From positions 62,001-126,000 of the forward strand of contig WIXG01000126.1 in the NCBI GenBank assembly GCA_009869945.1: a DNA stretch of 64,000 nucleotides. The letters are read 5' to 3'. The stretch's first letter is position 1. Every line of letters starts with the position of its first letter. Below, piece after piece: positions 6,901 through 54,500 of the stretch. The notes below the pieces were generated by a model. It did no database searches. It saw only the letters and a list, made by a program, of their open reading frames with translations, and had not been told where the DNA came from. Source of the stretch: Mesaphorura yosii (taxonomy: Eukaryota; Arthropoda; Collembola; Poduromorpha; Tullbergiidae). The position numbers were made by a program, and so were the translations under genes.

Positions 6901-8939
6901 AATTAATTAACTTCAACCATCAATTAATTAATCAATTCGCCAAACTCGCAATTCCAGGGAGCTGGAGAACGAGAAGAGCAAGACGGACAATTTGCTATAC
7001 TCCGTGCTGCCTGCGACGGTCGCAAACGAGCTGCGCCATCAGCGTCCGGTCCCTGCCAACCGGTACCCTTGCGTGACGCTCCTCTTTTCTGGAGTGGTTG
7101 GTTTCACGGAATACTGCGCCAAGCAGAGTACAACTCCCATGAAGATTGTTGAGCTCCTAAATACAATCTACACGACGTTTGACGTTCTCACCGATCCGAA
7201 GAAGAACCCAAACGTCTACAAAGTAAGTTGCCGAGGCGTCGCGTCGAGATGAAGAAGAAAGTCCTGCCAAATAAATGATACACAAACCGCTCTGATTTCT
7301 GTGCTCTGAAACCTTCTCCAATTAATTTACCTTGAGATTTCGTTTTCTCACTGCAAAGACTTCATTATATTTGTCTAATTGTGCTCATACTCGTATGTAG
7401 GTCGAGACAGTTGGTGATAAATACATGGCAGTCAGCGGTCTCCCGGAACCATGCACTTCACATGCCAAGTGCATGGCTGGCTTGGCGCTTGATATGATGG
7501 ATTTGGTGGAGCAGCTGAAGTATGAAGAGACGCAACTGGTAATTAACGCAAATGCAAATGCAAAGATGAAATGAATGAACGCGTTGACCTCGTGCGACTT
7601 TTCTCGTAGAAAATCACGATTGGGATCCATTCTGGTGAGGTGGTGACGGGAGTCATCGGACAACGCATGCCACGATACTGTCTCTTTGGGAACACCGTCA
7701 ATTTAACAAGTCGCACAGAGACGACGGGCGAATCGGGCAAAATTAACGTGTCGGAGGATGCGTACAGGTACGGCACGGCCAAAGCGGCCTCTTTGTGGTG
7801 TGAATGACGGGAAGTAGTACATGACATGACTCGCCATCGGCAGTCCGCGGTAGCGACCAACGCCATTGAGTAATGAATTATGAGACATCTTGCATTCTTA
7901 AACGAATAAGGTCGGTCAGTTTGAAGATGTACAACTCCAGCCACAAAGAATAACAAGAAACCAGTCAAATTTTGCCTTGTGGGAACAAGCAAGTGTTAGA
8001 TAACTAAATCAGAACGGCCGGGCAGGCAGATGGACGGAGTGTCTGAGCGTGAACTAGCTTATGAACTCAAATTGAATAGATTTATGACCATTTACGTGCG
8101 GTGCCGTACAAATAATGCTCACTCAACAATGCAAACAGAAACGGTTTCCACGCATTCCGCGCTTGCGTTTGCAATAAAATACGTATTAAGTATTACGTAC
8201 GCGGAGCACAAAGGCTGAGCTAAAAACCGGTACACCAGTTGCAGTCATTCGTTCCTGTTTGCAAGCGAAGATGCGCTTAATATTTTATTACGTGCTCGTC
8301 CGTTGCGGTGTGCGACTCTCGAAATATTTCACCTTCAAACTATTCTCCCATTTCGCACAGCACAAATAAATGTCATGGTTGTGAAAATCAGAGCAAAGAT
8401 TAAATCGTTTTATTGCGATTACGTCTTCCCAGTCTTGAGTCTTGTCTTTATGTACTTGCCACAAATTGATAAATAACACTGGCGGAGTGTTTTGTAATCG
8501 CCTGAGCGCGGACAAACGCTTAAATCGTAGGAGAAAAAGATTAATTCTTGTTTGGCTGCTCTGTTGTTGACCAAACGGTTCAGGAGCATGATCAAGTAAT
8601 ACTCGCTCGAATCCATCCGTGTCATTTTTGTCCACTGAGTCGAGGCTTTTGAATTTCAGGTGGTTGCAAGCAGGCGAGAATTTTGATCCGTCATTCTTCT
8701 TCGAGTATCGCGGCCCTGTTCAGATGAAGGGAAAAGCGGAGCCAATGAACGTCTACTTTCTCACACGGAAAACACCAGAAATCTCTGTGGAGTCGCCAAC
8801 TTCTGCTTCTGGAGGGTTCGACCTCGAACACCCCTCTCCAATTAACATCTCCACCATCGACATCAACGTCAACTCGATCCCGGTTACTCCTTCGATGGAG
8901 AATCTGACTCAAGGGGACTCGAGCAATCATACCACCTGA
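987..8939 (+). CDS. GUCY1B1: Soluble guanylate cyclase subunit beta-1 (5'-partial)
   Basis: This is the haem-binding beta subunit of the nitric-oxide receptor that converts GTP to cGMP in the cytosol as a heterodimer with an alpha subunit. Exons are 987-1087, 1419-1537, 2382-2537, 2829-3006, 4595-4746, 5126-5272, 6589-6671, 6755-6892, 6958-7222, 7401-7538, 7610-7767 and 8660-8939; all phases close. The H-NOX domain spans the first three exons, with the proximal-His segment [12 protein letters not shown] and the YxSxR haem-propionate motif (YYSDR). An H-NOBA/PAS region and a signalling helix (to about 6980) follow, then the cyclase domain with [16 protein letters not shown] and [14 protein letters not shown]. 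The metal-binding Asp positions are non-acidic (FSGVVGF), as usual in beta-1, where the alpha partner supplies them. About 637 residues are encoded here; roughly 32 N-terminal residues are missing, so the ATG at 1006 is internal. No alpha subunit is in the window. Confidence 0.95.
3678..4062. mobile_element. Putative short inverted-repeat element (MITE-like)
   Basis: Inside an sGC beta-1 intron, the left end (about 3678-3714, CTTGACCGAATACTTTTTG) reads as a diverged reverse complement of the right end (about 4013-4062, which carries TTCGGTCAAA twice). A near-identical 12-13 bp direct repeat, GCCGTAAAA(A)TAG, lies outside both ends at 3654-3666 and 4071-4082. There is no coding capacity. It could be a non-autonomous DNA transposon remnant; the family is unknown to me. 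Confidence 0.4.
5398..5534. repeat. Intronic inverted repeat able to form a long hairpin
   Basis: The arm 5398-5439 and the arm 5490-5534 are near-perfect reverse complements (core TTTTTCATTGATCTC against GAGATCAATGAAAAA, and CAATTGCGCAA against TTGCGCAATTG). A loop of about 50 nt separates them. It sits in the sGC beta-1 intron 5273-6588 and encodes nothing. It could be a small MITE or a transcribed hairpin. Confidence 0.65.
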
Positions 8940-27586: not shown

Positions 27587-30500
27587 TCATTTAAACTTCA
27601 TTTTGGAGACCGCGTTGCTCAAATATGTGACTTCTGCCTTGATTTGATTGATCGACTTCTCGAATTTCTCAATCGAGTCGAGCACGTGAATAGACTGCGT
27701 GAAAGGGTCGTAACGGACTTCGTACGGACGCGACATGGTTTCCTGGACCCATTGACTGTGGACGAGAGGAAAATATCAGGATTAGTCAACAACGATAAAC
27801 GAATGAATGAGCAAGCGAAAAGTACCGAAACTTGTCCTTCACATCCTGAAATGATTCGGCCACGAAATAAACATCCTGGAAATCTTGGTCCTGGTACGGC
27901 TGAACGGCGGTGGTTCTTGGTTCAAACAGACGGTGCTCTGGCTTGTTGGACAGGGCGTGCTCCAGCTCACCATAGCTGGACAGAAGCCCTGCGCCATACG
28001 CCTTGGTCCTGCCGCTCTCCTTGCAAAGCCCAAACTCCACAGTAAACCAGTACAACTGCATTCAACACGCGAAATGGTACATAAAAGACTGGTGCAGCCG
28101 CCGAAGGTCGACACACCACACACCGACGAAAAACTTACGGTTGAAAACTTCTCGATTTCTTCATCGGTCGCCGCAAGTGAAGCCAGACCCAGTTCCTGTG
28201 AGAATTGGGCAAACAGCGGATCCGCAAGCATTGGAACATGACCCAGCAGCTCATGAACGCAGTCGCTGGAACAAGAAGTCGGAGAGTTAAGTCCAAGTCA
28301 GGTTTATGATCCTTGCTGGATCCAGCTTGCAGCGCAACTTACGGTTCTGGAGAGTGGTCCGGCGATGAGCCATGTCGAACGTACTGCGTGCATTGAAACA
28401 CGCGATACGCGAGACTGGCCAAGAAATCCCTCGCGGTAAGAAGTCCAGCAGCAGGCCGCAACGAGAAGCCGGTTCGTCCTGCAAACTCAAAATATATGAG
28501 TATGAAAGTTGCAATTCTGGCCGGCTAAAATTAATAGTGTGACTTACGCTTCAAGAATTCAGAAATGTCTTGCAGCTGCGGAATATTATCAGCCCGGTAG
28601 CCAACGTGCTCCTGGAGCAGCTGGAAAGCATCGATGTACTGCTGACAAGCGTGTGTTGGGAGCAGCGCCACGAGTTTTGTGAATACGTGTCCCCACGTTT
28701 TGATTTCTTCTGGGGCGTACTGCACTCTTGGGATTGGTTCGCCACTGCTCAAAACACAGTTTGCATCAATTCACGATTGGCATGCAATTATGTTTCTCGA
28801 GTCATCTCTCACTGTTTATAGTTAGTTAGTTCACTGTTTATTTATACTCGCTTTTTACGTATCTCTCACTGTTTGTAATCAAACGCGATGTCGGCGATCA
28901 TCTTCCTCCGAGCCCGATACACCTTGTCTGCGAATCCAGGATGGTCCATGTCCAAGTCCGGTTCGAATTTGGTCATCAAATGATTGCATAAGTCGAGTTC
29001 CGAGATGTGTTTGGGATACCAAGGTTCTGAAACCACACATGTAAATATACAAGTTTGTCTAAGTTTGCGCTGTCACACGCTTGGTTATTGCTGACAGGGA
29101 ACCTTTTATGGATCCATGAGTCGAGACAACGTTCACTGACGCTATCGACGGACTCAAGCGAAGCGTCTTCAGCAAAATGACCAAATTGACACGAGACACC
29201 ACGAGCTGAATCATTATGTCGAACTCGCACGATGGTTCGTGCGAGACGCGACTCTCCATCCGCTTCACGACTCCTTTAAAATTCTAAACAAAAGTACTTT
29301 TAAATATTCTACTCGAATTTCGTCCAATTCATTTCGTACGTCGATAGTTTTCAGGATCCTTGCAAAAGACGTCATTCCTTCCTTGATTGAGAAAATGATA
29401 GTCGATTCTTCCGTTTTATCCTCGACAACAAGTGCGGCGCCTGGTGCTGTTGTGTTAGGGGCCGGCTCCACATCAGCAGGCAATGCTGACACGGACTTGC
29501 GCTGTTCTTCATCAGGTTTCAGAAACGCATCGTCGACCAGCAGCAGATCATCTTCGGACAGCTCCGAGTCGTGCGAGAGCTGACGAATCTCTTCCAGCCA
29601 GGTACGCTTGACTTCCTTGTTGACCTGCGTCTCGAAGCGGGCGTCCCCAACAAGCGAACGGCGACGCGAAGGATATCCATTCTGACGGGAAAATAAGAAG
29701 AGTTACTGTTTCTGCTGTCTCAGCCTGCCCCACTACTTGATGTATAGGAAATCGAGCCAAATCTGCAGTTGCATTCACAAGAAACGATGATTTCATCGAC
29801 TTGATCCCAGATTTATTTTGCCTTTTCAATAAAATCGTAGAAATAATTCAGAATTAAATTAATTTTCCATCGTTCTCAATCTCGTTCATGACTTAGAATA
29901 ATGGCATTATAGTTGGTTAAATGTGCCTGTAATCTCATGAACTTTGATTTTGATTTGAAATAAAGAGACTAGAGAAAGATAAAAGAGCAGAACAGAAAAG
30001 ATTGAGATGGCCTGACCGGGCAAAATGCCCTGTGCTTCGTTGACTGCGTAATGGAACATTCCAAGCCGCAAGAGCAGGAACAGGAAGGAAGGAAGGAAAG
30101 AACTTTAGAAGATTGAGGGCATCTTCTTCGTCTTCCATCAAGAAGATCTTTGCTCTGCGGCTGCGTACCATGAACGGTAAAGATAAATCGCGACTAGAAA
30201 ATTCATAGTCGGAGAGCGCATGGAAGATTTCGGATTCAAAATTGGGATATTGATTTATTTGTTCTGTTTCCAGGATTTCTTCGGGCAGCCGTGTACTTAC
30301 GCTTCAGAAACCGCCTCCAACCATGTGCTTGTAATTAATGAGTGGGGACGCCAGCTTTCTATTGTACAAGGCCACGTCGGAGAAGTCAGCGTCAGTCTCC
30401 TTGACTTTATTTAGCCTTGGTGCTAATTTGTCAATGCCTCATTTGCTTTGCTGTCGCGCCGCAGCTCCGCACGACCCACGAGTTTCACATAAAATTGTCA

Positions 30501-36794: not shown

Positions 36795-39700
36795 ATGGAC
36801 AAGTCCACTTTTATTTCCAGATTCCAATTGTGCTCTGTAATTATCTTTTTGGTTGCCTCAGCTCCTGATTTTCATAGTTGTGACACTTCTTCGTGTGTCC
36901 GTCTCGACCCAGGCGCTCCAAACTGCACAATTGAATTTAGAGAAGAGGGATCGGTTCTTGTGAACGCGACATGTCTGGAGCCAAATACCTTTATTGTTCC
37001 AGCCAACAGAACTCGACCAGGCAAGTATCCTGGGCAGCCAAGCAGCTGACTTCAGAGGTACGAAGATCAAGTCTTTATTATTAAATTCCAGAGCTCATGG
37101 TGCGGACATCAGACTACGAATATTTCTTAACCTTGTTCGGTGACAACTTGCCTGCGCATGCACGAATCAACTGTCTATCAGATTACCCGACGGATTTTGA
37201 CTTCGAAGGAGTTGGGGTAAGTTCGCATAACTCAAATGATCCGAGTTGCATAGCAGGTAATGCCTGTCTAGAACACTGGGACTAGAACCAATGCACTGAT
37301 ACCAACTTGAACAATTTTAGATGCTTGACTTCTTCCGCATTTCGAAAGGAACGAAAGCGATTGTCAACGAGACTGGACGGGTCTACATAACGAGTGCAGA
37401 AATATTCCTCACTCCTGAATCCACTGGAAAATACAGCATTTACTCAATTAGCAACAAAAGCATTTCGACATCATTCTTTATCTTTGCAGAAAGTAAGTTC
37501 CATTGGTCACTAAAATCAATCTCTCCCACTCACTGTTGGCTGTATTTGTTGGTTACTCGCAGAAAATTCCGGACCGTACCTAATTGGCGCATCCACGACA
37601 CGATCACCGACACACAGTCTTCGTCCGACTCGAGCACCTGCAGGCGAAGGAAGTGGGGCAGTCATCCTGCCTTGTGTGGCCTCCAATTACAATACGTCCG
37701 TTCACCTGTATCTGCAATTGGAAGAGGACAAGTGGTTCAACGTTGAGTCGAGAGTGATTCGACGAGATCCAAAGATCGGCTTCGTTCTGAATGAGTTCCC
37801 CGGAACTTACAAATGCACAACTGGTGAAATTGCGAATGACACAAGTGATTTCATCATCGTTGAAGTTGAGAGCGGTGGTAAGCAAAATTGGCGTTTGCTG
37901 GTCATAGGCACCGTAATGTTTGTTCGTTGATATATCTCTTGATCTACTCCAACTACTGTACTCTTTATTTCAGGTTCATCATCGCGTCCAGTCCCAACCT
38001 ACCATTCCCTTGAACTGAAATTTTCAAACGACAGCGTCATCTGTACAGCGTCCAGCGAAGTCTCAAACTCAACGCTTAAGCTTACAAACATTTACTCCAG
38101 AAATCCAACCGAAGCCAGGCTGATGACTGAATGTTTAAAACGGGCATGTCTTTCTTCGATCCTAGCGTGACTGAATTTGTACCGTTGTTTGAACTTTGCC
38201 TTTGCCACAGGGCAATGCATACTGCGGAAGTCACAGTTATCATTCTCGGAAGTACGATGATATTCCCGAAGAAGACTCGCACTGCAAGCAGCCAAATTGC
38301 ACTCAAATTACGGGGATTCACGAGGATGGAATCGCGTACTGCTCTCTCGGATGGGATGGCATTTGGGCGGAGTATTTTACTGGGCTCGATGGATACATTT
38401 GTAAGCTTCCCATATATGGAGCCTTCTAGCATGCTGATACTATGTAGTCTCATGTGTTCTTTGAAGATCTTGACTGGAAGGACGCTCCGCTGTCTGCACT
38501 ATTGTCTCCGAAATGGCTCCCAGATATTGAAGCCGAGAGTTTTCAAACAAATACCGTGTACGAGTTTCGCTGTCAGTCTGTGGGAACCATTTTCCTCAGA
38601 GATCCCTACGTTTTGAGCGTCAAATACAAAAATGGTAGTGTGGTCCAAGTGGCAGGTATGTACAAACTGCTGTATAAACGCACTACACATCTGTGAGGCC
38701 AACAAATTTTTAATTCTGCGTCCAAGAAATGATTTGGTGGCGCGACACCAAGAAGCTGTACTTGACGGCCGACATGGAAGGAATAATTTGCACTGATCAT
38801 CTGTGGACAACAAATGCGCCCGTCCTCTCAATGGTGGGTATCTCTGTCCATGGTTAGTTTTCGTTCTATTTTTTTTAGATGGATGACTGACTGACTGCCT
38901 GATGCTCTACTTTATTGCTACAGAAATTCAGTGTGGAGTCGACCAGTTCAAGTGTGACAATTCCCAATGCATTAAAGACTCGTGGCGATGTGACGGAGAT
39001 CGAGGTTAAAGCGAATTTCAAACCAGTGTCATGCTGTTTTAATGCTCATTTAATTTTAATTTTCGTGTGTGATTTTTGTAGACTGTGACGATGGATCGGA
39101 CGAAGAGGACTGCTCAAGTATATCTAATGGACGCTTTTAAAATAATTTAATTGTCTTAACTTTTATCTAATCTTAACTACGGTTTCATTAGAGCACACAT
39201 GCAAAGCAGGACATTTTCAGTGCACGACCGGATTCTGTATACCAGACGAGAAAAAGTGCAATAATAAATATGATTGTGCTGATCAGGTAAGAAATTAGAA
39301 GCTTCACGAATTAAAATATTAGGCAGTGTTTTTATATTCGTCTCTCGTTCCTGCAGTCAGACGAGTCACTTGCAACTTGTCATGGTAAGTTTATTACCTG
39401 AGCGAAACAATATATTAATAATGACACTGCTTGCATTTTGCACTTTTTCAGACACGCCTTGCACTTCTCAAGAGTTTAAATGGTTAGATTTTGTCCACTT
39501 GCATAGAAAAAAGGATCGCCCAGTTTTAATTTCTAAAAATGCCTCTCAAATTAGTTACAGTGGCCAATGCATGCCAGCCCATTTCTTATGTGACGGCGAC
39601 AACGATTGTCTGGGTGAGACGTGAGATTTTGTATCCTACACACGCCATAATTCTCACTCATCTTACGACAGTATTTTTTTTGTAGACATGACGGACGAAA

Positions 39701-40816
39701 GCGAGCATTCATGTAGAAGTAAAGATTCTCTGGAGCTCTGCAAAGTTGTTGAAGTTGTTTCCTAAAATTTGTCGGCTTCAATCACAGGGTATTACCCGCA
39801 GATAGTGGACACGAACGCGGCGAATGGCACCACACTCATATTTGTCGCCCACACGACGAGGGAGCTCGTCTGCCAAGTGAAGTTGCTGCCGGACCGTTTG
39901 AGACCACGCCTGGAGTGGCATCGGGATGGGAGGGTATCGTAATGCTTAAATTGTAAATGAGATTAGTGGTGCTAAAATCTGCTTGCTCTGTGTCTCATGA
40001 ACGCAGAATATCACTGACACGGAGCGACTGTGGAAGGACGTAACCGGACTAAGGCTGTCGCTCAAATTTTCCAACGTCACGAAAGAAGACCAAGGAGACT
40101 ACAAATGCTCAGCCAACAATATATTGGGAAACGCCAAATACATAGTGCAGGTGGTTGTAGAAGACCCGGGTTAGTCTTGCAGCTAACTTCAAGAGTTCGA
40201 GATTCTTCGTGTGAGGCCCGCTTTACACGACGGTTATTTGTACCTTGCTCGTTGCAGATCACACATGCGTTCGCGATTTGGACTATCTTTCGTGCGCCCT
40301 GCGTAAGTGCTACTTCAACCATGCACTAAATGCGTGTTTGACGGAGGACGACTTTCATAAATCAACATCAACATCAACTACAACGACGACGACATTCACA
40401 ACAACGACACCATCCACCACGACCACCACTACGACTCTGAAACCTGACACGAATTCCTCTTGGAGGACTACAACCACCACCACTCCTGAACTAAGCACAG
40501 CTTCAGAGTCGCAGTCGTCATACTTGTCGGAAGATGGCGAAGGGCTTCATTGGGCAACGTCAGTCGGAGGTTAGCCATGTGAAAGAAAATGGAATTTTCT
40601 ATTTTCAGTTGCAGGTCACAATATTATCTGTCAATTTCAGTGACGCTGCTAATTATCGCATTTACAATTACAAGCTGTGGTGGGATTTTCCTTTGGTGGA
40701 AGTACGTCACGAGAAGTGCTCCAGTGTGCTCGGCGAGGATGCGAAACGAAGACGAGCATGTTGCCTTGAACAGTGTGTCATCCCAGCACGAGCATGAAGA
40801 TGGCAACGACCTATGA
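36795..40816 (+). CDS. Single-pass membrane protein with Ig-like and LDLa domains
   Basis: I cannot name the family; the architecture suggests a cell-surface receptor or adhesion protein. The 18 exons are 36795-37020, 37092-37216, 37321-37492, 37563-37877, 37974-38143, 38211-38400, 38467-38655, 38727-38852, 38924-39004, 39082-39117, 39192-39286, 39357-39384, 39452-39613, 39686-39718, 39788-39933, 40007-40169, 40258-40569 and 40641-40816. Phases close over 914 residues. A signal peptide (1-29, LCSVIIFLVASA) leads into several diverged Ig-like segments (about 30-500; clearest 195-279, ending GTYKC). Three LDLa modules follow at about 506-543 (CDGDRDCDDGSDEEDC), 546-583 and 588-648, the third with an insertion of about 25 residues. 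An Ig domain (650-752, DQGDYKCSA), a short four-Cys segment, a Thr-rich stalk (from about 785), a membrane helix (857-876) and a 38-residue acidic tail without a kinase complete it. Introns 1 and 5 appear to use GC donors. Confidence 0.85.
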
Positions 40817-41231: not shown

Positions 41232-44200
41232 TTAGAGGATTTCCTCCTTCAGCTGATGCTGGTGCCCCCGGTCCTGACAAGCAGCCTGAGTAAATGTAAA
41301 CAATTTTAATTCAGTTAAAATATATTTTATTAATTCAAAAACTTCACCTTAGTTTCATAATCTCACCTGGTGAGTAGGCCAATCCTTTTTTTGGCAAAAC
41401 GAAGAGCAGTAGTGAACCGTGTGGCAGCCCGAGCACTCCAAGCTTCCTTCTCGACCACAGTTGTCGCACTGAACATAAAATTAATGTTAACCATTGACTG
41501 TAGAATAATCCCAACCCTTTTAATCACCAAATCACCATCTTTTAGTCTTACTTTTGTAATAGTAGTTGAGTTGGTCTGCATTGGCGTAAAGCTGTCGGGA
41601 TCCAGAACCTCGATCGAGTAAGTTTGGATTCGGTTGTTGTCGAAAATGCGAAGAATTTGAGGGTGGCCGACGACTGGGCTCTGCACAGCTCCCTGAAACG
41701 TACTTTGCAGTTGAGATCTAAGTTCTTCAGCCTCCTGCGTCGTTCTTTCCTTCATTTCCAGGACCATGTTTTTCAGATTGGCCGCTGCGGTGACAATTCG
41801 GTCCACTCCCTAACAAAGCAGAAGGAAACATTTCATTACAGTTGATTAAAGATGTTCAGTTCAGTTTGATCGTGGTAATTAATAATTAAGTGGAGTTCAA
41901 ACTAACCTCTTCCAACACTTTCCACGCCTCATCATTGGAAGCCGGCAACGACGTTTGGTTAACCTTTAACATCGCTTGCGATAGCGTGTTTAGACTTCCA
42001 GTAACCAGACCTGAGGTCCCAGGCGTACAAACATCTGACGATTCGTCAGTGTTTGAATCTTTTGATGTAAGCCTCTCAAGTTTGATTGGCTTTGTCAGGT
42101 TATCGCCACTTTGTGTCTTTCGCTTTCTTTGGTATGGCGTGAAGGGCCGAATCGGACCAGTCTGCGTTGTAAAGTAAAGTGAAGGTACAATTTACAAGTC
42201 ACACTTTGTAAAGGGCAAACATCTTTGTAAAGAAACAAGAGTTTATTTGCTTACTGCTGTCGCGTCGTCCACGCAGTTCGAACAGATGCAGCTGGAAGCG
42301 TGCGGGACAAGGAACCCCTTGTCAATCAGTGTCTGGAGCGTCCGACCCCCAAAACGAATGCTTCGTTTCCAGTCCTTGCTGTTTCCTCTCCCACAAAGTG
42401 CTTCGAATTCCGTGGGTGTGAACCACTCAATCCCGGCCTTTATACACTTTCCTTTGTTCCCTGATCCGAACTTGTTCTTGTAGAGTTCAGCGTTGGTGTC
42501 CTTACACCTGACTGGGAGAATCGGGGCGGACACCGCCTCCTCCCACGTCAAATGGGAATTACAAAACAGGGACGAGGACGAAGACGATGAGTTTGTGGTT
42601 ACGGCGGTCGTGGTGTTGATGAGACGGGCCGTCTGCTGCGACGCCTGGCTGCCACTGCCACGAGACACCACGGCATTGAGCGAGTCTTGGACCAGCGAAT
42701 TTTGTGACCGAGCGATTACAATTCCGTTCTGAAAGGTGAGTCAAAAGAGGAATTAGTTGTAAATGTGACTGCACGTCTAAAAGGAAGCGTCGAGGCTCCC
42801 TTCCGTTGTATCGTCAAGCACCTCGTCACTACGGCTTTTCTTATACTGGCAACAGTAGCCGTCACAACCATCAACTGATGTCGAATGACCTTGCAATATG
42901 ATTCCCGACTCCCCGTCGCTCATTTTAAACTGAAAGATCATAATCAGATCAGACTCTTAGATACCAGATCAGGAGTACACAGTAGCAGCACAACACCAAG
43001 CGAGACTGCATCTCGAGAACGTGATAACGCTGGCGTCTTAACAGTCGAGGCCCCTGACTCCAGCATTAAATATAAATTATCAATTACAAACACCATACCA
43101 AAATCCAAAAAGAAGTCGGTTCAGAAGTGTGTGGGTGTATTTATATTTGGAGCAATGAGGAAGCGCAGACTTTATTCAAAGAAGGGCAGGGGCACGAACG
43201 AAAGATGGACAGCGTTGAATAAACTGTTATCAGCGGGTAAAGATTCCACAGAACTTAGCATAAATGGACACGTATCCATGCAAACATTGCAAAGCATAAT
43301 GGACATGAAGGTGGTCAAGAGTCATTGCGTCTACTTACAGGGTCCGAGTCATTTAGTACTGTGTAGGGCATGGAGCCAACCACAGGAATCGCGATTATAT
43401 TGCCTCCATGTTGCTGGTGGTGCCTCGAGCCGCTCCCACTACCGTCTTGTCCATGTCCGTGAAGCTCGCTGACATCGTTTTCCCGTCCGCTGACTGTAAC
43501 TGCAGATTAACATGCAAACCGTAAACTTGTGCTTTTGCCTAAGCTTAGGTTAGTAATTTGAGTGCGGTCTGTACTGTGGTGCAATTGTTGCTGCTGCATG
43601 CCGTCAGCAGAGACTAGAGTCACTGTCGTTCCGTCATGGTCACCGCCCGCCTCCGTCTTGATGACAATTGGATGGGCGCCCCCAATTATCACCTCATCGC
43701 CGTGCTGCATCGCCTCGTGCTCCACGACGTTGCCAATCTCAATCTCATTCTCGTGGACTAGGATATTGTGGTGGTGGTGGTGCAGGTGGAGCTGGAACTC
43801 GTCCTCCTCCCCTTCGCCCTGCGTCGCGGTGGCATGCCCGATAATGATACCCCCTTCGTCCCCTTCCCTAACCCCGTCGCCGTTCTCCTCCCCGATAATG
43901 ACGTCGCCAACGATAATGCTCGTCCTGAAAAAATGCGTTTGTTAAAATGGTTTAATAGTTCAATGGCAAAATAAACGATTTTCGGGTTTCATGGGTGGTC
44001 TGAGCTTACATGTCGTTGTCATTCTCATGTTGTCCATCTGTCGTGCACGAATTGTGGAGCTGTTGCTGTTGTTGGGAGTGGAGCGCCTGCTGGTGCGAGT
44101 CTCGGGATTTGTGGCTCCTTCCCGCGTTCAGGTGGGTTCCGTCGTTGGTAATATTGTTGGTTAGGTTGGTACTTTGTACACTATTCGCATTCACATTTGC

Positions 44201-48515: not shown

Positions 48516-51500
48516 TCAAACGATCTGTTCTTTCTTGGTTGGGATCGGCGGAGAGCTGCTCAGTGTGGAGGAGATGGACGACGACGTGGTTCCGTTCGTC
48601 GAGGCCGGTTTGCTGGCGACAGAGGAGATGGATGTCGTCGTGACGCAGCCCCCACCACCACCCCCACCCCCGATAATCGAGCTAAATATTCCCCCAGAAC
48701 TCGAACTGCTCTTCGCACTTGGACTGTTTTTGCAGCTGCTGCTCGTCGAATTGTTATTCGTGCTCGTAGCTTGAGTGCACGCCGAATTCGACTTGCCACT
48801 CGAGTGCTGATTACAGCACCCATTATTACAGGAACCGCCGCCACTACGTTCGCCCGAGCTGTTGGAGTGCTGGTGGTTGTAGCGGTGATTCTGGTGCGAA
48901 TGCGAGTAATGGTTAGACACACCGCTGCCGCCGTCGCTGCCGTGCCTCTCGGCTCTGGTTGGGAGCGGGCTTTGAGGCGGTGGAGATGTGGGCGCTGCAT
49001 TGTTAGCAGCCATCACCGACGCAATAATTCCATTCGGCTGCGGTTGTGAGTTGCCAGCCGTGCTGTGGTGATGATGGTGGTGGTGGTTCATGATTATTGA
49101 GCTGGACCCGCCACCGTTGCTATTGTTGCTCGCACAACTGCCCGTCGAGATTCTGCTGATGGAATTGTTCATGATGCAATTATTGATGGCAGCCGACGCT
49201 GAAGACGACGAGGTGGCGCCAACGCCAGGCATGCTCGTTGCGGACGCACTACTGCTGCTCCCGTTGTTGGGAATGAGGATGGACTGCGACGGTGGGGAGG
49301 AAGATTGATTGCTGGCGCTTAGGCTGTTGCGGCGTTGGTGATTAATGCTGTGGTGATGCTGCGAGTGTGTGGAAGTAGACGACAAAATCGAAGTGCTGGA
49401 GTTCCCGCCAACGCCTGCAGCATTGATCGAGCCAGCGGCTCCAGACGAGTTGTTGCTGTAGTGCTGCTGTCCAGAGCTCCCAGTGGCGGGCGACCCAGAT
49501 GCGTTGTTTCCACTGTGCTGCTGGTGGTGGTGATGGTGCGGCGTGCTGTGACCGTGACCGTGGTGGTGATGGTGGACACCACCTGCTGCAGGTGACTTTG
49601 TGAGGATTTGCTCCGGGAACACCAGCGAGGTAGCATTCTCACTCGCACTTCCCCGAATGTCCTTACACACTTTCACCTTCCGTTCGGGCAGGTCGCACGA
49701 TTCCTTGTCCGATTCAGTCTGCAAATAAACAAAGATTAGTACTGGCGTCAAATTTTGAATTATATTGGCACTTGCAGCGAATAGCAAGCACGGCTTTCAT
49801 TTTGCTATTCAGCGATTCAACTATTCAGTGCTATTAGTAATACAGTGGCGAATTTGAAGGAAAAGCATTATTGGAAAAGAGTAACGTTTGGATCAACATT
49901 CTGAGGGTGGCAATGAATACCGGCCGAACTTTTTAATTAGTTTGCATCTAATTAGTATTCAAATCGCGTTCAAACACTACCGAGTCTCTAGGCAGCGTCG
50001 TGTGTAATTCTCTGCTTGCTCATTCGTATTCGGAATGCGGAGTCAATTTGATAATGGTGGAGGACAGGGAAAGGTTATTGCTGCTACTTTTCTTAATGAA
50101 AGCCATGGATCATCATCATTGTCGCCTTTCAGCATCCCTCACCTGTCTTGCACCTCCCGTGCAATTATTCGCGAACGGTGAGATCCGATCCGATATGTCG
50201 GAGCCGCACGAGGAGCTTTCGCTCAGCTGCTCAGAGTTGCCAAATTTTCGCCCTGCTCTTGGCGATGGCGGTGGTGGTCTTCGACTGCACACTTGCGACT
50301 GAACATGCTCGCAGATTCGGCGGAATCTTCGAATATTTCCTGATAGCAAAATAAACGTGATGGCATACAGAAACTCTCGCTCTCCGACCGTCGGATGCCC
50401 GGTCGGTTTCGGAACCGGTGAAATGTCGACTTGGAACCGGACTTGTCGCTGGAACATTGCTGGCCCTGCTGAACTTCGCTTATACTCAACTTTGAAGGAC
50501 ATTGGACTCGCCACGCTGTGACTCAGTTCTGCAACCTAAAAATACAAATGAATGTATTTTTCACTGCAATCTGCAATTTATGAAGTGATTGGCAGAATTA
50601 ATGTTCGCTTACCGACAAAAATGCGTGTATAAGGTCAGCTTTAACAGTTGCCAGTGGTTTTCCTCGAACGAGGATCGTGTAGGCTTCATCTCTCTCCGAC
50701 CCCATCAGACTACCGAACCAGGAACGCTTCGTGAGTTCAGGAGACGACTCCGGAGTGAGGTGAACCTCCTCAGTTGAGGCTGCAAGCAATAGAGAACGGC
50801 GGCATAAGTGTGCCGTTCGTTCGGCTGCAAATTAATTTTGACTCGCAGACTCTCGAGGCATTCCGCTAAAATTAACACTAACGTCCGCATCATTATTTCA
50901 GCTTAGCCATTATCCTATCCAATGTCTCGGTCTTGGCTTCACATTTCTTTCTTTTCTCTCTTCCTTGATCTCCTCTCGAAACAACGAAGACTGATTAAGA
51001 TGAAGCAGTTTTTCCGCTTCATGTATTAAGGAAAGGCAGACTCTGCCTCGCCGTAGTTGTTAATCTGCACATGATACGCACATACTGCCGAACAGCGCAG
51101 CACGAGACCGTAAGAGTTATTAGAGCAACTCGAAAGTTTGGTGTAACAACCTGTAGAAAGTTTTGTAAGATAACACGTCTCATAAACGTTAGGCTGAGCC
51201 CCAAGCTCGACTTTCCAAGTCTTCTTCACTTCTCTTTTCTATTTCATTAGGATTCTTATTCTCTGCCTAAATTCAGAAGCGAAAGCAACTGAAGCGGAGA
51301 AAGTTTCGAATAACGTCTAAAGAATCGTCTGCCCGGTCCAGCAACATATCTCGTCTCGTATTTCGAGTAATTCACAAAATTGGTCAAATGAACAAGTTTT
51401 TTACGTTACGAGAATGAGTGGTAATAACAATACATTCAACGAATTCACCGGCCAGTCTGCACTGCCTTCCGTTTACCCTTTGCCTTTGAAATTTTTTCTT

Positions 51501-54500
51501 TACCTTGTAATTTCCGACGATGAAAGCGCGGAGACCCCAGAAAACTATTCTTGAGAGTATTGAGCCTTGATCTCCAGTGGGCAAGGTGCGGAGAGCCCGG
51601 TGGCGTTGGGTTGGCGATGCCTCCGCCAATCCCGAGGGCCATTTCCTGATCTCTGTTGAGTCCGATGGAGGAACTCACGTTCGCGACGCGGTGCGGCATT
51701 TTCGGTGAAGGAACAGGCGACGATGGGCTCGAGGAGGTCAACGATGAGTGATTCGTCAAGTGAAGGCTCGGACGTCGATGGCGACTGAAAGGGAAAGAAG
51801 AAGCGATTAATCATTGTAATATGATACGCGAGGGTAGGAGCCCAAATTGCCACCACAATGTGGGCATAAAAGTCAAAACAATTCCATCCAATAGTTTTCT
51901 TTCTTCTACTCTGACTCTTCTGCTTTCTTTGACGTGTCAATTTTGAATGAATCGAATCGTGGCCGTGTATACTGTGGGAAGCGAGCAGGTGTGGGATGGA
52001 ATCAAAGCAGGTTACCATTGAATATTTATATTATGCAAAATATTCATTTGATCTTAGATACTCAACAGTCGAGGAGGCCACCCGAGCAAACGAATAACGA
52101 TAGCCAAGCAATGGCAATTTCGCGCATCCGTACAAAGACCGAAGATCCGCACGGAGTCGAGTTGGGTCAAATCGTCCACCCCAGCCACAAGAGAGTTTTA
52201 TGTTATTGCCCGCACAAGACCAGAATGTAATTTCCATGCAAACTTTATGTTTAGATATTTAAATTTTTATTGGCTCCGTGTAATTCTCTGTCTGCATTCA
52301 TGGGAATACTACGATACTACAGCATTTCTCTACTCCGCTCCGGCGGCGAGCGCCTATCGACCAGCCAAGCCAGCAGCCTTGGCTGTGCTAGCACACCGCA
52401 TTAACAATGTTCTGGAACGCATATCGTGTATCGTAGCCAGTGTCATCAAATTACCGCAACGCAAACAGAAGCACCACCAGCAGCAGAAGTGGCAGTAATA
52501 TGATACAGCAGCCGTTCTGATGTTACAATTTTGTGTCATTAAAAATTTAGTACCAAACCAGACCAGGGTAAAGAACGCCTTCTTCGGTAGAGTCGAGGTA
52601 ATTAAAATCTGCCATCGCCATCGAGTCCTCCGCAAAGGCAAGGACATCATTCAGCGACTACGGATTATTCCAGCCGTAGACAGAAACTTAAGCCGTCATC
52701 TGCTCTGCCCTTATTTCCATTGTTCCGCACACTACACGAGGCAACATTAAATCCATATTCTGTAGAAACCTCAAATCAAATAAGCTTTTCCAAGATTATA
52801 AATATCGACAAATCTGTGGTTTGCTTTAGCAAATCAATCACTGATGCTGGAAAGCGTGCATGAGCGCTTATCTCAATTTCAATCGCAGTATGTCGATCGA
52901 GACTGCCACTGCAGCTCCGAATGCTGACGCCATGCTTCAGCCACGAGTGGCAGCATCGCGAAGTAAGGTGCGATCAGTGAGATAAAATTCATTGAGAAAT
53001 TGCCGACCTAATTAATCGTTCACAAATTGCCGTCTCCAATGTTCTAAGGCTTGGCGCGAATTATGGTCAAAATTACTCTACAACACGCGAGAAGGTCACC
53101 GAGCAGGACCGAAGAAGGATTTGCCAGATTGGCTTGAGAAGCACAGTTTTCCATCCGATAAATTGTGGACAAACTGAATAATAAACTCTCTTTTGGGACT
53201 GTTCAGAGATTTTTGACAAACATTCCTCATCTGAAGTACATCAAAGGATTAGCTCAGCCTAAGCTAACTGACGCGCATAAGGATGCAAGGTTGGAATTTG
53301 CGAAAAAGCACATGAATTGGGGCGATAAAGAGTAGAACAAGGTCATCTTCGACGAGAAGAAATGGAATCTCGTTGGGCCAGACGAAAACCAATTTTATTG
53401 ACACGATTTAAGGAAAGAGCCAGAATACTTCTCCGAAGGGCAGCAAGGTAAGTTGATCTCTGTTTAAGCTCAATCTGTGGTATTTAACTCAATATTTCAT
53501 AGGCGGTGCTTCATTGATGTTTTGGAACGGATTCGGAATTAATGACGTGCTGCCATTGGCTGAGATTTCAACGCGAACTCGCAGGGCTTCACTGACATTC
53601 TTGAAGACGCATTGCTTCCCGAGGCAAGAAAAGTTAGCAGAAGAGGTAGGATTTATCAACAGGATAATGCTCCAGTTCATACTTCCATGCACACTAGGGA
53701 CTGGTTCGGAAGACATAAAGTGCGGATTTTGGAGTGGGCTGGTCGAAGTTCAGACCTCAACCCTATTGAAAACCTTTGGGGCATCATGACGCGTACCGTC
53801 TATTTTAAAGGAAGGTAATTTGCAAAAGTTAATGACCTGAGATTGGCAATTCAAATGGCATGGAACAGCATTCCTCTTCAAACGTTGAGAAATTTTAAAA
53901 ATTCGATGAAAAATGGAAATTTTCAAGTCGTTTATAATCGAAGAGGTTTCATTGGTTAGACTAGATCGAAAACACGAGTGACACATGTCAGTTTTTGTCT
54001 GAGAAGTCCTTTTTTGTAATTGTGATCCCCTGAGTTTATCTTATTTCATCACTAAGTTCTTAATTTTTTTTACTGTAATTTAGTAGCTAATTTCGTTTTG
54101 TAAAATCTAACGTGGTGTACTAGCGTCCCTTTGTAGTAAATAGTAGAAAAATTGGCGAATAGAGTCAGAAGTTACGAGGAAAAAACCCTCCGAGTTTATC
54201 TCACTGATCACACCTTAATTCGAAAGTGAGTGGATTCGCTTTCCATCTGACTGGCTACGAGCAGAGCATGTGTGCCTGCCATAATGCAGGAGGTTTTCAC
54301 TGCCTTCGTGTTGGCGTGGTGAATGGCGAATTTTTGACTATCACGGCGCTTGTCTTGTTATTTATAGATTTTTCATGTTTGCCCCTCGCGCCTGCTTTCA
54401 CGCTTTGCACCTTGCTTTCAATTTTTCCAGTTCCTTCTGATTTCTTTACGCTATGATACAGACGATACTTGAGCCCAGCCCAGCCCGAGGTGAACACACA

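Follow-up and report, generated by a model that had tools for sequence, protein, structure and literature searches.

A predicted kinase-less, LDLa-bearing relative of PVR/VEGFR-type receptors in the genome of the springtail Mesaphorura yosii

Gene model and domain order at the locus

The gene described here lies on the forward strand at positions 36795..40816 of a 64,000-nucleotide stretch of DNA (C126:62001-126000; hereafter the window) from the 93.0 Mb, 1127-contig genome of M. yosii, whose 66 Chitin_bind_4 and 26 Hemocyanin_M matches mark it as that of an arthropod. Its neighbours in the window include a guanylate cyclase with an HNOBA end (6932-7252, +), a biopterin hydroxylase (27839-28297, -), which we take to be tyrosine hydroxylase, and a SAND-domain gene (42243-42740, -), presumably DEAF1. 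A segment at 51445-51810 (-), which we regard as BRSK/SAD-kinase-like, gave no Pfam match.

The gene model was rebuilt from splice sites and open reading frames. It comprises 19 exons encoding 890 residues, with all junctions in phase. Intron length ranges from 66 to 104 nt; of the 18 introns, 16 have GT-AG borders, two have GC-AG borders (37021-37091 and 38144-38210), and 13 are in phase 1. The first-pass annotation had described 18 exons closing in phase over 914 residues. Its start, stop and phase are retained, and the exon and residue counts are revised, as that model kept the 72-nt intron at 39483-39554. With this segment left in, LDLa 3 loses one cysteine; once it is spliced out, the second cysteine of the module is restored. 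This, together with the GT-AG borders and a phase-2 intron at the equivalent place in both paralogues (A and B, see below), argues that 39483-39554 is an intron. The gene is real: the existence of two paralogues with identical domain order excludes a chance gene model.

The features of the locus are as follows; C147 and C68 are tyrosine-kinase relatives from the same genome.

36795..40816, forward strand: whole coding region, start to stop; 19 exons, 890 aa; 11 of the 12 introns of each paralogue matched
36795..37020, forward strand: exon 1, signal-like and N-terminal Cys-containing segment, residues 1-75; start aligns with those of A and B; a GC-AG intron follows
37092..37492, forward strand: exons 2-3, Ig-1, residues ~76-174; by alignment with Ig-1 in four kinase-less relatives and in both C147 and C68
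37563..37877, forward strand: exon 4, Ig-2, residues 175-279; homologue of VEGFR domain 2, by PF21339 (VEGFR-1-like Ig)
37974..38400, forward strand: exons 5-6, Ig-3 with a Cys-rich insertion and YFTGLDG, residues 280-399; by family alignment
38467..38852, forward strand: exons 7-8, Ig-4, residues 400-504; by family alignment
38924..39117, forward strand: exons 9-10, LDLa 1, C508-C542 (PF00057)
39192..39384, forward strand: exons 11-12, LDLa 2 (PF00057)
39452..39718, forward strand: exons 13-15, LDLa 3 (PF00057); intron positions match the single LDLa of A and B
39483..39554, forward strand: intron 13, 72 nt, phase 2, GT-AG borders; kept unspliced in the earlier 914-aa model
39788..40169, forward strand: exons 16-17, Ig-5 of I-set type, residues 626-728 (PF07679, E = 1.2e-9)
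40258..40569, forward strand: exon 18, short Cys-rich segment followed by a Thr-rich stalk; by alignment, no Pfam match
40641..40813, forward strand: exon 19, membrane helix and acidic tail of ~40 residues; no kinase, no NPxY

Pfam recognised three LDLa modules (E = 2.2e-31 for the protein), each with six cysteines, and one clear Ig domain, the I-set domain, which matched over residues 651-725. The tryptophan and acidic pattern of LDLa 1 is complete, and we take the acidic residues to form a calcium site. A signal-like 19-mer starts at residue 5 (Kyte-Doolittle 1.73), and a single membrane helix from about residue 831 (Kyte-Doolittle 2.09) precedes the tail. The first-pass description of a type I membrane protein, with a signal peptide, three LDLa modules followed by one Ig domain, a Thr-rich stalk, one C-terminal membrane helix and a short, acidic, kinase-free tail, is thereby upheld. 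A full-length Pfam scan (E up to 1) found no kinase, EGF, laminin, LamG, SEA or YWTD propeller. Pfam scans of A and B likewise found no kinase, and the tails of all three proteins have no NPxY. Searching for H[RG]D- and DFG-type motifs gave no match on the forward strand between 36.7 and 41.5 kb, and just two isolated DFGV matches on the strand that carries A and B. Between Ig-5 and the stalk, positions 40258-40362 encode ~35 residues with four cysteines, which are missing in A and B and have no Pfam match.

The N-terminal Ig-like segments proved as diverged as the first-pass annotation had stated. Residues 1-504 gave no Pfam match above threshold and no phmmer match in the PDB at E up to 5, and eight sub-segments of the protein had no match in Pfam. 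An AlphaFold model of exon 4 alone was poor (pLDDT 47, pTM 0.41), and Foldseek returned 0 matches with it at E 0.001 or better; the model is therefore given no weight. In Ig-1, the F-strand cysteine appears by eye to be substituted (TGKYSIYS). These segments were recognised via the paralogues and not from the window protein itself.

Paralogues and relatives in the genome

A genome search with exon 4 (E up to 0.001) returned three matches, one being exon 4 itself and the other two lying on contig C822 (19.7 kb). The minus strand of this contig carries two complete tandem genes, A (824 aa) and B (811 aa), of 13 exons each. A further fragment at 14.6-15.1 kb of the reverse complement derives from a third paralogue, C; it covers the Ig-3/Ig-4 region only and is possibly a pseudogene. 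A and B are 41% and 42% identical, respectively, to the window protein over the aligned length, and 47% and 45% identical for residues 1-504. All three proteins have the same domain order: a signal segment, four Ig-like domains, LDLa, Ig, a stalk, a membrane helix and a short tail. A and B have one LDLa each, and the window protein has three. In both paralogues, 11 of 12 introns are matched by an intron of the window gene; the unmatched one lies inside Ig-2. The single LDLa of A and B is interrupted in phase 2 at FK|C and in phase 1 past the fifth cysteine, as is LDLa 3, whereas the intron positions of LDLa 1 and LDLa 2 are unlike those of LDLa 3. Rough dN values, obtained with saturated dS and a poor stalk alignment, are 0.24-0.69 for the ectodomain domains versus 0.77-1.19 for the stalk and tail, which points to stronger constraint on the former. 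Within this clade, the VEGFR-D2-like domain ranks with the better conserved ones (47-64% identity).

These data bear on two readings of the locus. Perlecan, a secreted matrix protein that also contains other domains, has LDLa modules adjoining Ig domains, so that a perlecan-like matrix protein, or else an artefactual join of two genes, could be considered. However, the full-length scan found none of the Laminin IV/EGF, LamG or SEA domains of perlecan, a membrane helix is present in the window protein, A and B alike, and the same domain order recurs in two paralogues on another contig; we reject both versions as very improbable. Alternatively, the protein could work like an LDL receptor, in endocytosis or as a scavenger, with the Ig domains serving as a spacer. 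It shares a cluster of three LDLa modules with the LDL receptor family, and LDLa 1 has the full acidic and Trp pattern. Yet it differs from that family in having no match to a YWTD propeller or EGF-type modules and no NPxY in its tail or those of A and B; moreover, A and B carry a single LDLa, and most of the conserved protein consists of Ig domains. This reading, too, is rejected as improbable.

Relatives elsewhere in the genome were found by searching with pieces of A and C377 as well as with the window/A/B family. The best candidates were scored, and the counts are therefore lower bounds: the family has at least seven kinase-less membrane receptors that appear intact, next to two receptor tyrosine kinases (RTKs) found, C147 (HGDLATRN) and C68 (HGDLALRN). 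The models of the two RTKs are partly unspliced joins, and the junctions used for the intron comparison lie outside those parts. Among the best 60 of 176 PDB rows, the C147 kinase was closest to PDGFRA, VEGFR2, KIT, CSF1R and FLT3, which ranked below one EGFR entry of 678 residues in which no single stretch passed the threshold. In C68 (C68:130001-140000), an apparent extra Ig-like domain follows Ig-2 and precedes the Cys-rich Ig.

Four relatives, C1038, C377, C20 and C677, are kinase-less membrane proteins without LDLa and form one clade in the tree (100/98); the RTKs sit on long branches, and their placement has a low support of 50/20, which leaves room for one or more losses of the kinase. 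The juxtamembrane tails of the four are partly similar, and that of C677, a protein without LDLa, contains an NPxY-type motif (NPNY). C254 (minus strand) encodes a PVR-type ectodomain in a two-exon model without a membrane helix, which is possibly secreted; the model ends close to a gene that looks by eye like a tetraspanin. At C56:1-9000 (minus strand), VEGFR-type Ig-1 and Ig-2 are followed by EGF-like and Dumpy-type repeats, either in one mosaic gene or in two neighbours. A scan of viral contigs gave 39 pattern matches, among which no relative was confirmed.

Descent of the ectodomain and origin of the LDLa modules

Exon 4 of the window gene alone matched the VEGFR-1-like Ig model PF21339 weakly (E = 0.17), and neither the full-length protein nor its 165-residue Ig-1/Ig-2 segment matched it. 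Ig-2 of the paralogues gave E values of 1.3e-4 when trimmed and 0.0054 at full length for A, and of 0.0022 and 0.053 for B. The same model matched Ig-2 of C147 (4.8e-5), C1038 (4.7e-4), C377 (0.0023), C20 (3.2e-7), C677 (0.075) and C56 (2.6e-8), with C20 and C56 passing its curated cut-off among these six; C68 and C254 had no match.

A profile of domains D1-D5 was built from the three N-terminal halves (window protein, A and B), without the LDLa modules and the I-set Ig. It matched five of eight relatives, C1038 (1.9e-13), C20 (5.1e-13), C677 (6.3e-8), the kinase-bearing C147 (3.6e-7) and C254 (3.6e-6), and was not significant for C56 (0.013), C377 (0.16) and the kinase-bearing C68 (0.71). The best E value among 769 decoys (shuffled, reversed and window ORFs) was 13. 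With a profile of the whole ectodomain, seven of eight relatives matched at 4.5e-6 or better, including both RTKs (C147, 1.7e-12; C68, 4.3e-6). A profile search of the PDB placed VEGFR2 at 0.36 and 0.72, below an unrelated match at 0.0093. The A1 profile had no PDB match at E up to 10, which indicates that being an Ig domain does not suffice for a match to this profile.

The Ig-3 motif YFTGLDG has related forms in C68 (YFTGFEG) and C147 (EYATGFD), and the phase-0 intron within Ig-5 of the window gene recurs in A, B, C147, C1038, C377, C20 and C677. By way of the paralogues and the family profile, the ectodomain shows both a VEGFR-D2-type Ig and significant similarity to the ectodomains of PVR kinases. 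The first-pass label of an unassigned receptor no longer holds, the ectodomain being homologous to those of the PVR/VEGFR-type RTKs C147 and C68 of the same genome. We consider it very probable that the ectodomain descends from a PVR/VEGFR-type receptor, and on sequence grounds the gene appears to represent a branch of the PVR/VEGFR ectodomain family that bears LDLa modules and has no kinase.

The position of the LDLa modules suggests how this branch may have arisen. A module flanked by phase-1 introns and located at a phase-1 intron is the classical signature of exon shuffling. The LDLa exons of the window gene, A and B are in phase 1 at both ends and sit between the last two Ig domains. Of the six relatives compared here, five (C1038, C377, C20, C677 and C147) have a phase-1 intron at this junction, and the C68 model has none there. 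This arrangement argues for exon shuffling into a PVR-type ectodomain. An ancestral PVR-type receptor would have lost its tyrosine kinase, and one LDLa would have been gained by phase-1 shuffling between the last two Ig domains, with three now present in the window copy. The window gene may thus exemplify a receptor built by exon shuffling at an intron that still marks the site.

Proposed function and comparison with known receptors

Our preferred reading, to which we give a probability of roughly 0.55, is that the window gene encodes a kinase-less PVR relative with shuffled-in LDLa modules, predicted to be a non-signalling trap, buffer or co-receptor for PVF. Ig-1 to Ig-3 would bind cystine-knot ligands of the PVF type. 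Having no tyrosine kinase, the protein presumably cannot signal by itself, and would so act as a membrane-tethered trap or buffer, or as a co-receptor for kinase-bearing PVRs. The LDLa modules may add a calcium-dependent contact to a basic partner, such as a ligand tail, a heparan-sulphate-bound ligand or another protein. Candidates for PVF-type ligand genes are present in the genome (four PF00341 matches at E up to 0.1, three of them over the cut-off); one of 14 control genomes also matched, below the cut-off.

The same descent could have led to a changed ligand, with the kinase-less set functioning in recognition or in adhesion, on blood cells for instance, after PVF binding was lost. The expansion of the family to at least seven kinase-less membrane members versus two RTKs found, the divergence of the members from one another, the fast change of stalks and tails, and the ability of LDLa modules to bind varied partners all fit this alternative. 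The conservation of the VEGFR-D2-like domain within the clade and the PVF-type gene candidates speak against it, and we regard it as less likely than the PVF-binding reading.

If a PVF-binding role is correct, PVF signalling, in blood cells as well as in morphogenesis, would gain a further level of control outside the cell through a kinase-less, LDLa-bearing clade. Decoy insulin receptors provide a precedent for extracellular control by a receptor without signalling, and soluble VEGFR1 and FGFRL1 are non-signalling receptors that sequester ligand. More tentatively, the PDGF/VEGF system of arthropods might include a non-signalling arm of several genes, in which kinase-less PVRs, some of them LDLa-bearing, buffer or present PVF, and which would have been overlooked since BLAST names the LDLa-bearing members 'LDL receptor'. 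This prediction concerns crustacean transcriptome proteins that are classified as LDL receptors. In a published tree of crustacean PVRs, BLAST named the outgroup subclade low-density lipoprotein receptors, the other two being PVR1 and PVR2 (PMC11024359).

The first-pass annotation knew of no single-pass receptor with the order Ig-LDLa-Ig and a short, kinase-free tail; in agreement, a non-exhaustive search of the open-access literature found none described, nor any account of an Ig-LDLa-Ig relative of PVR. The crustacean 'low-density lipoprotein receptor' subclade resembles the window-gene family in belonging to a PVR tree, and its name fits an LDLa-bearing architecture; we would guess that the two might correspond, the passages on that tree giving no domain order (PMC11024359).

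With the PVR/VEGFR/PDGFR RTKs, such as Drosophila Pvr and crustacean PVR1/PVR2, the window protein shares a homologous Ig-1, a VEGFR-D2-like Ig-2, an Ig-3 with a related motif, the last Ig and the character of a type I membrane protein. With C147 and C68 it further shares several introns. It differs from these RTKs in having LDLa modules between its last two Ig domains and no kinase, the intracellular tyrosine kinase being a defining feature of the group. For crustacean PVRs with examined domains, the reported number of Ig domains is two to five, along with a kinase (PMC11024359). Drosophila Pvr, reported as the sole known Drosophila orthologue of PDGF/VEGF receptors, with three Pvf ligands, has seven Ig repeats (PMC6982143), in contrast to five Ig-like domains in the window protein by the present count.

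In keeping a receptor ectodomain without a kinase, the window protein is like soluble VEGFR1 and FGFRL1. It is also like DAF-2B of C. elegans, which is described as a kinase-free receptor that captures ligand (PMC7041946). Unlike these three, the present family consists of separate, multi-copy genes with added LDLa modules, and ligand sequestration by its members is a prediction.
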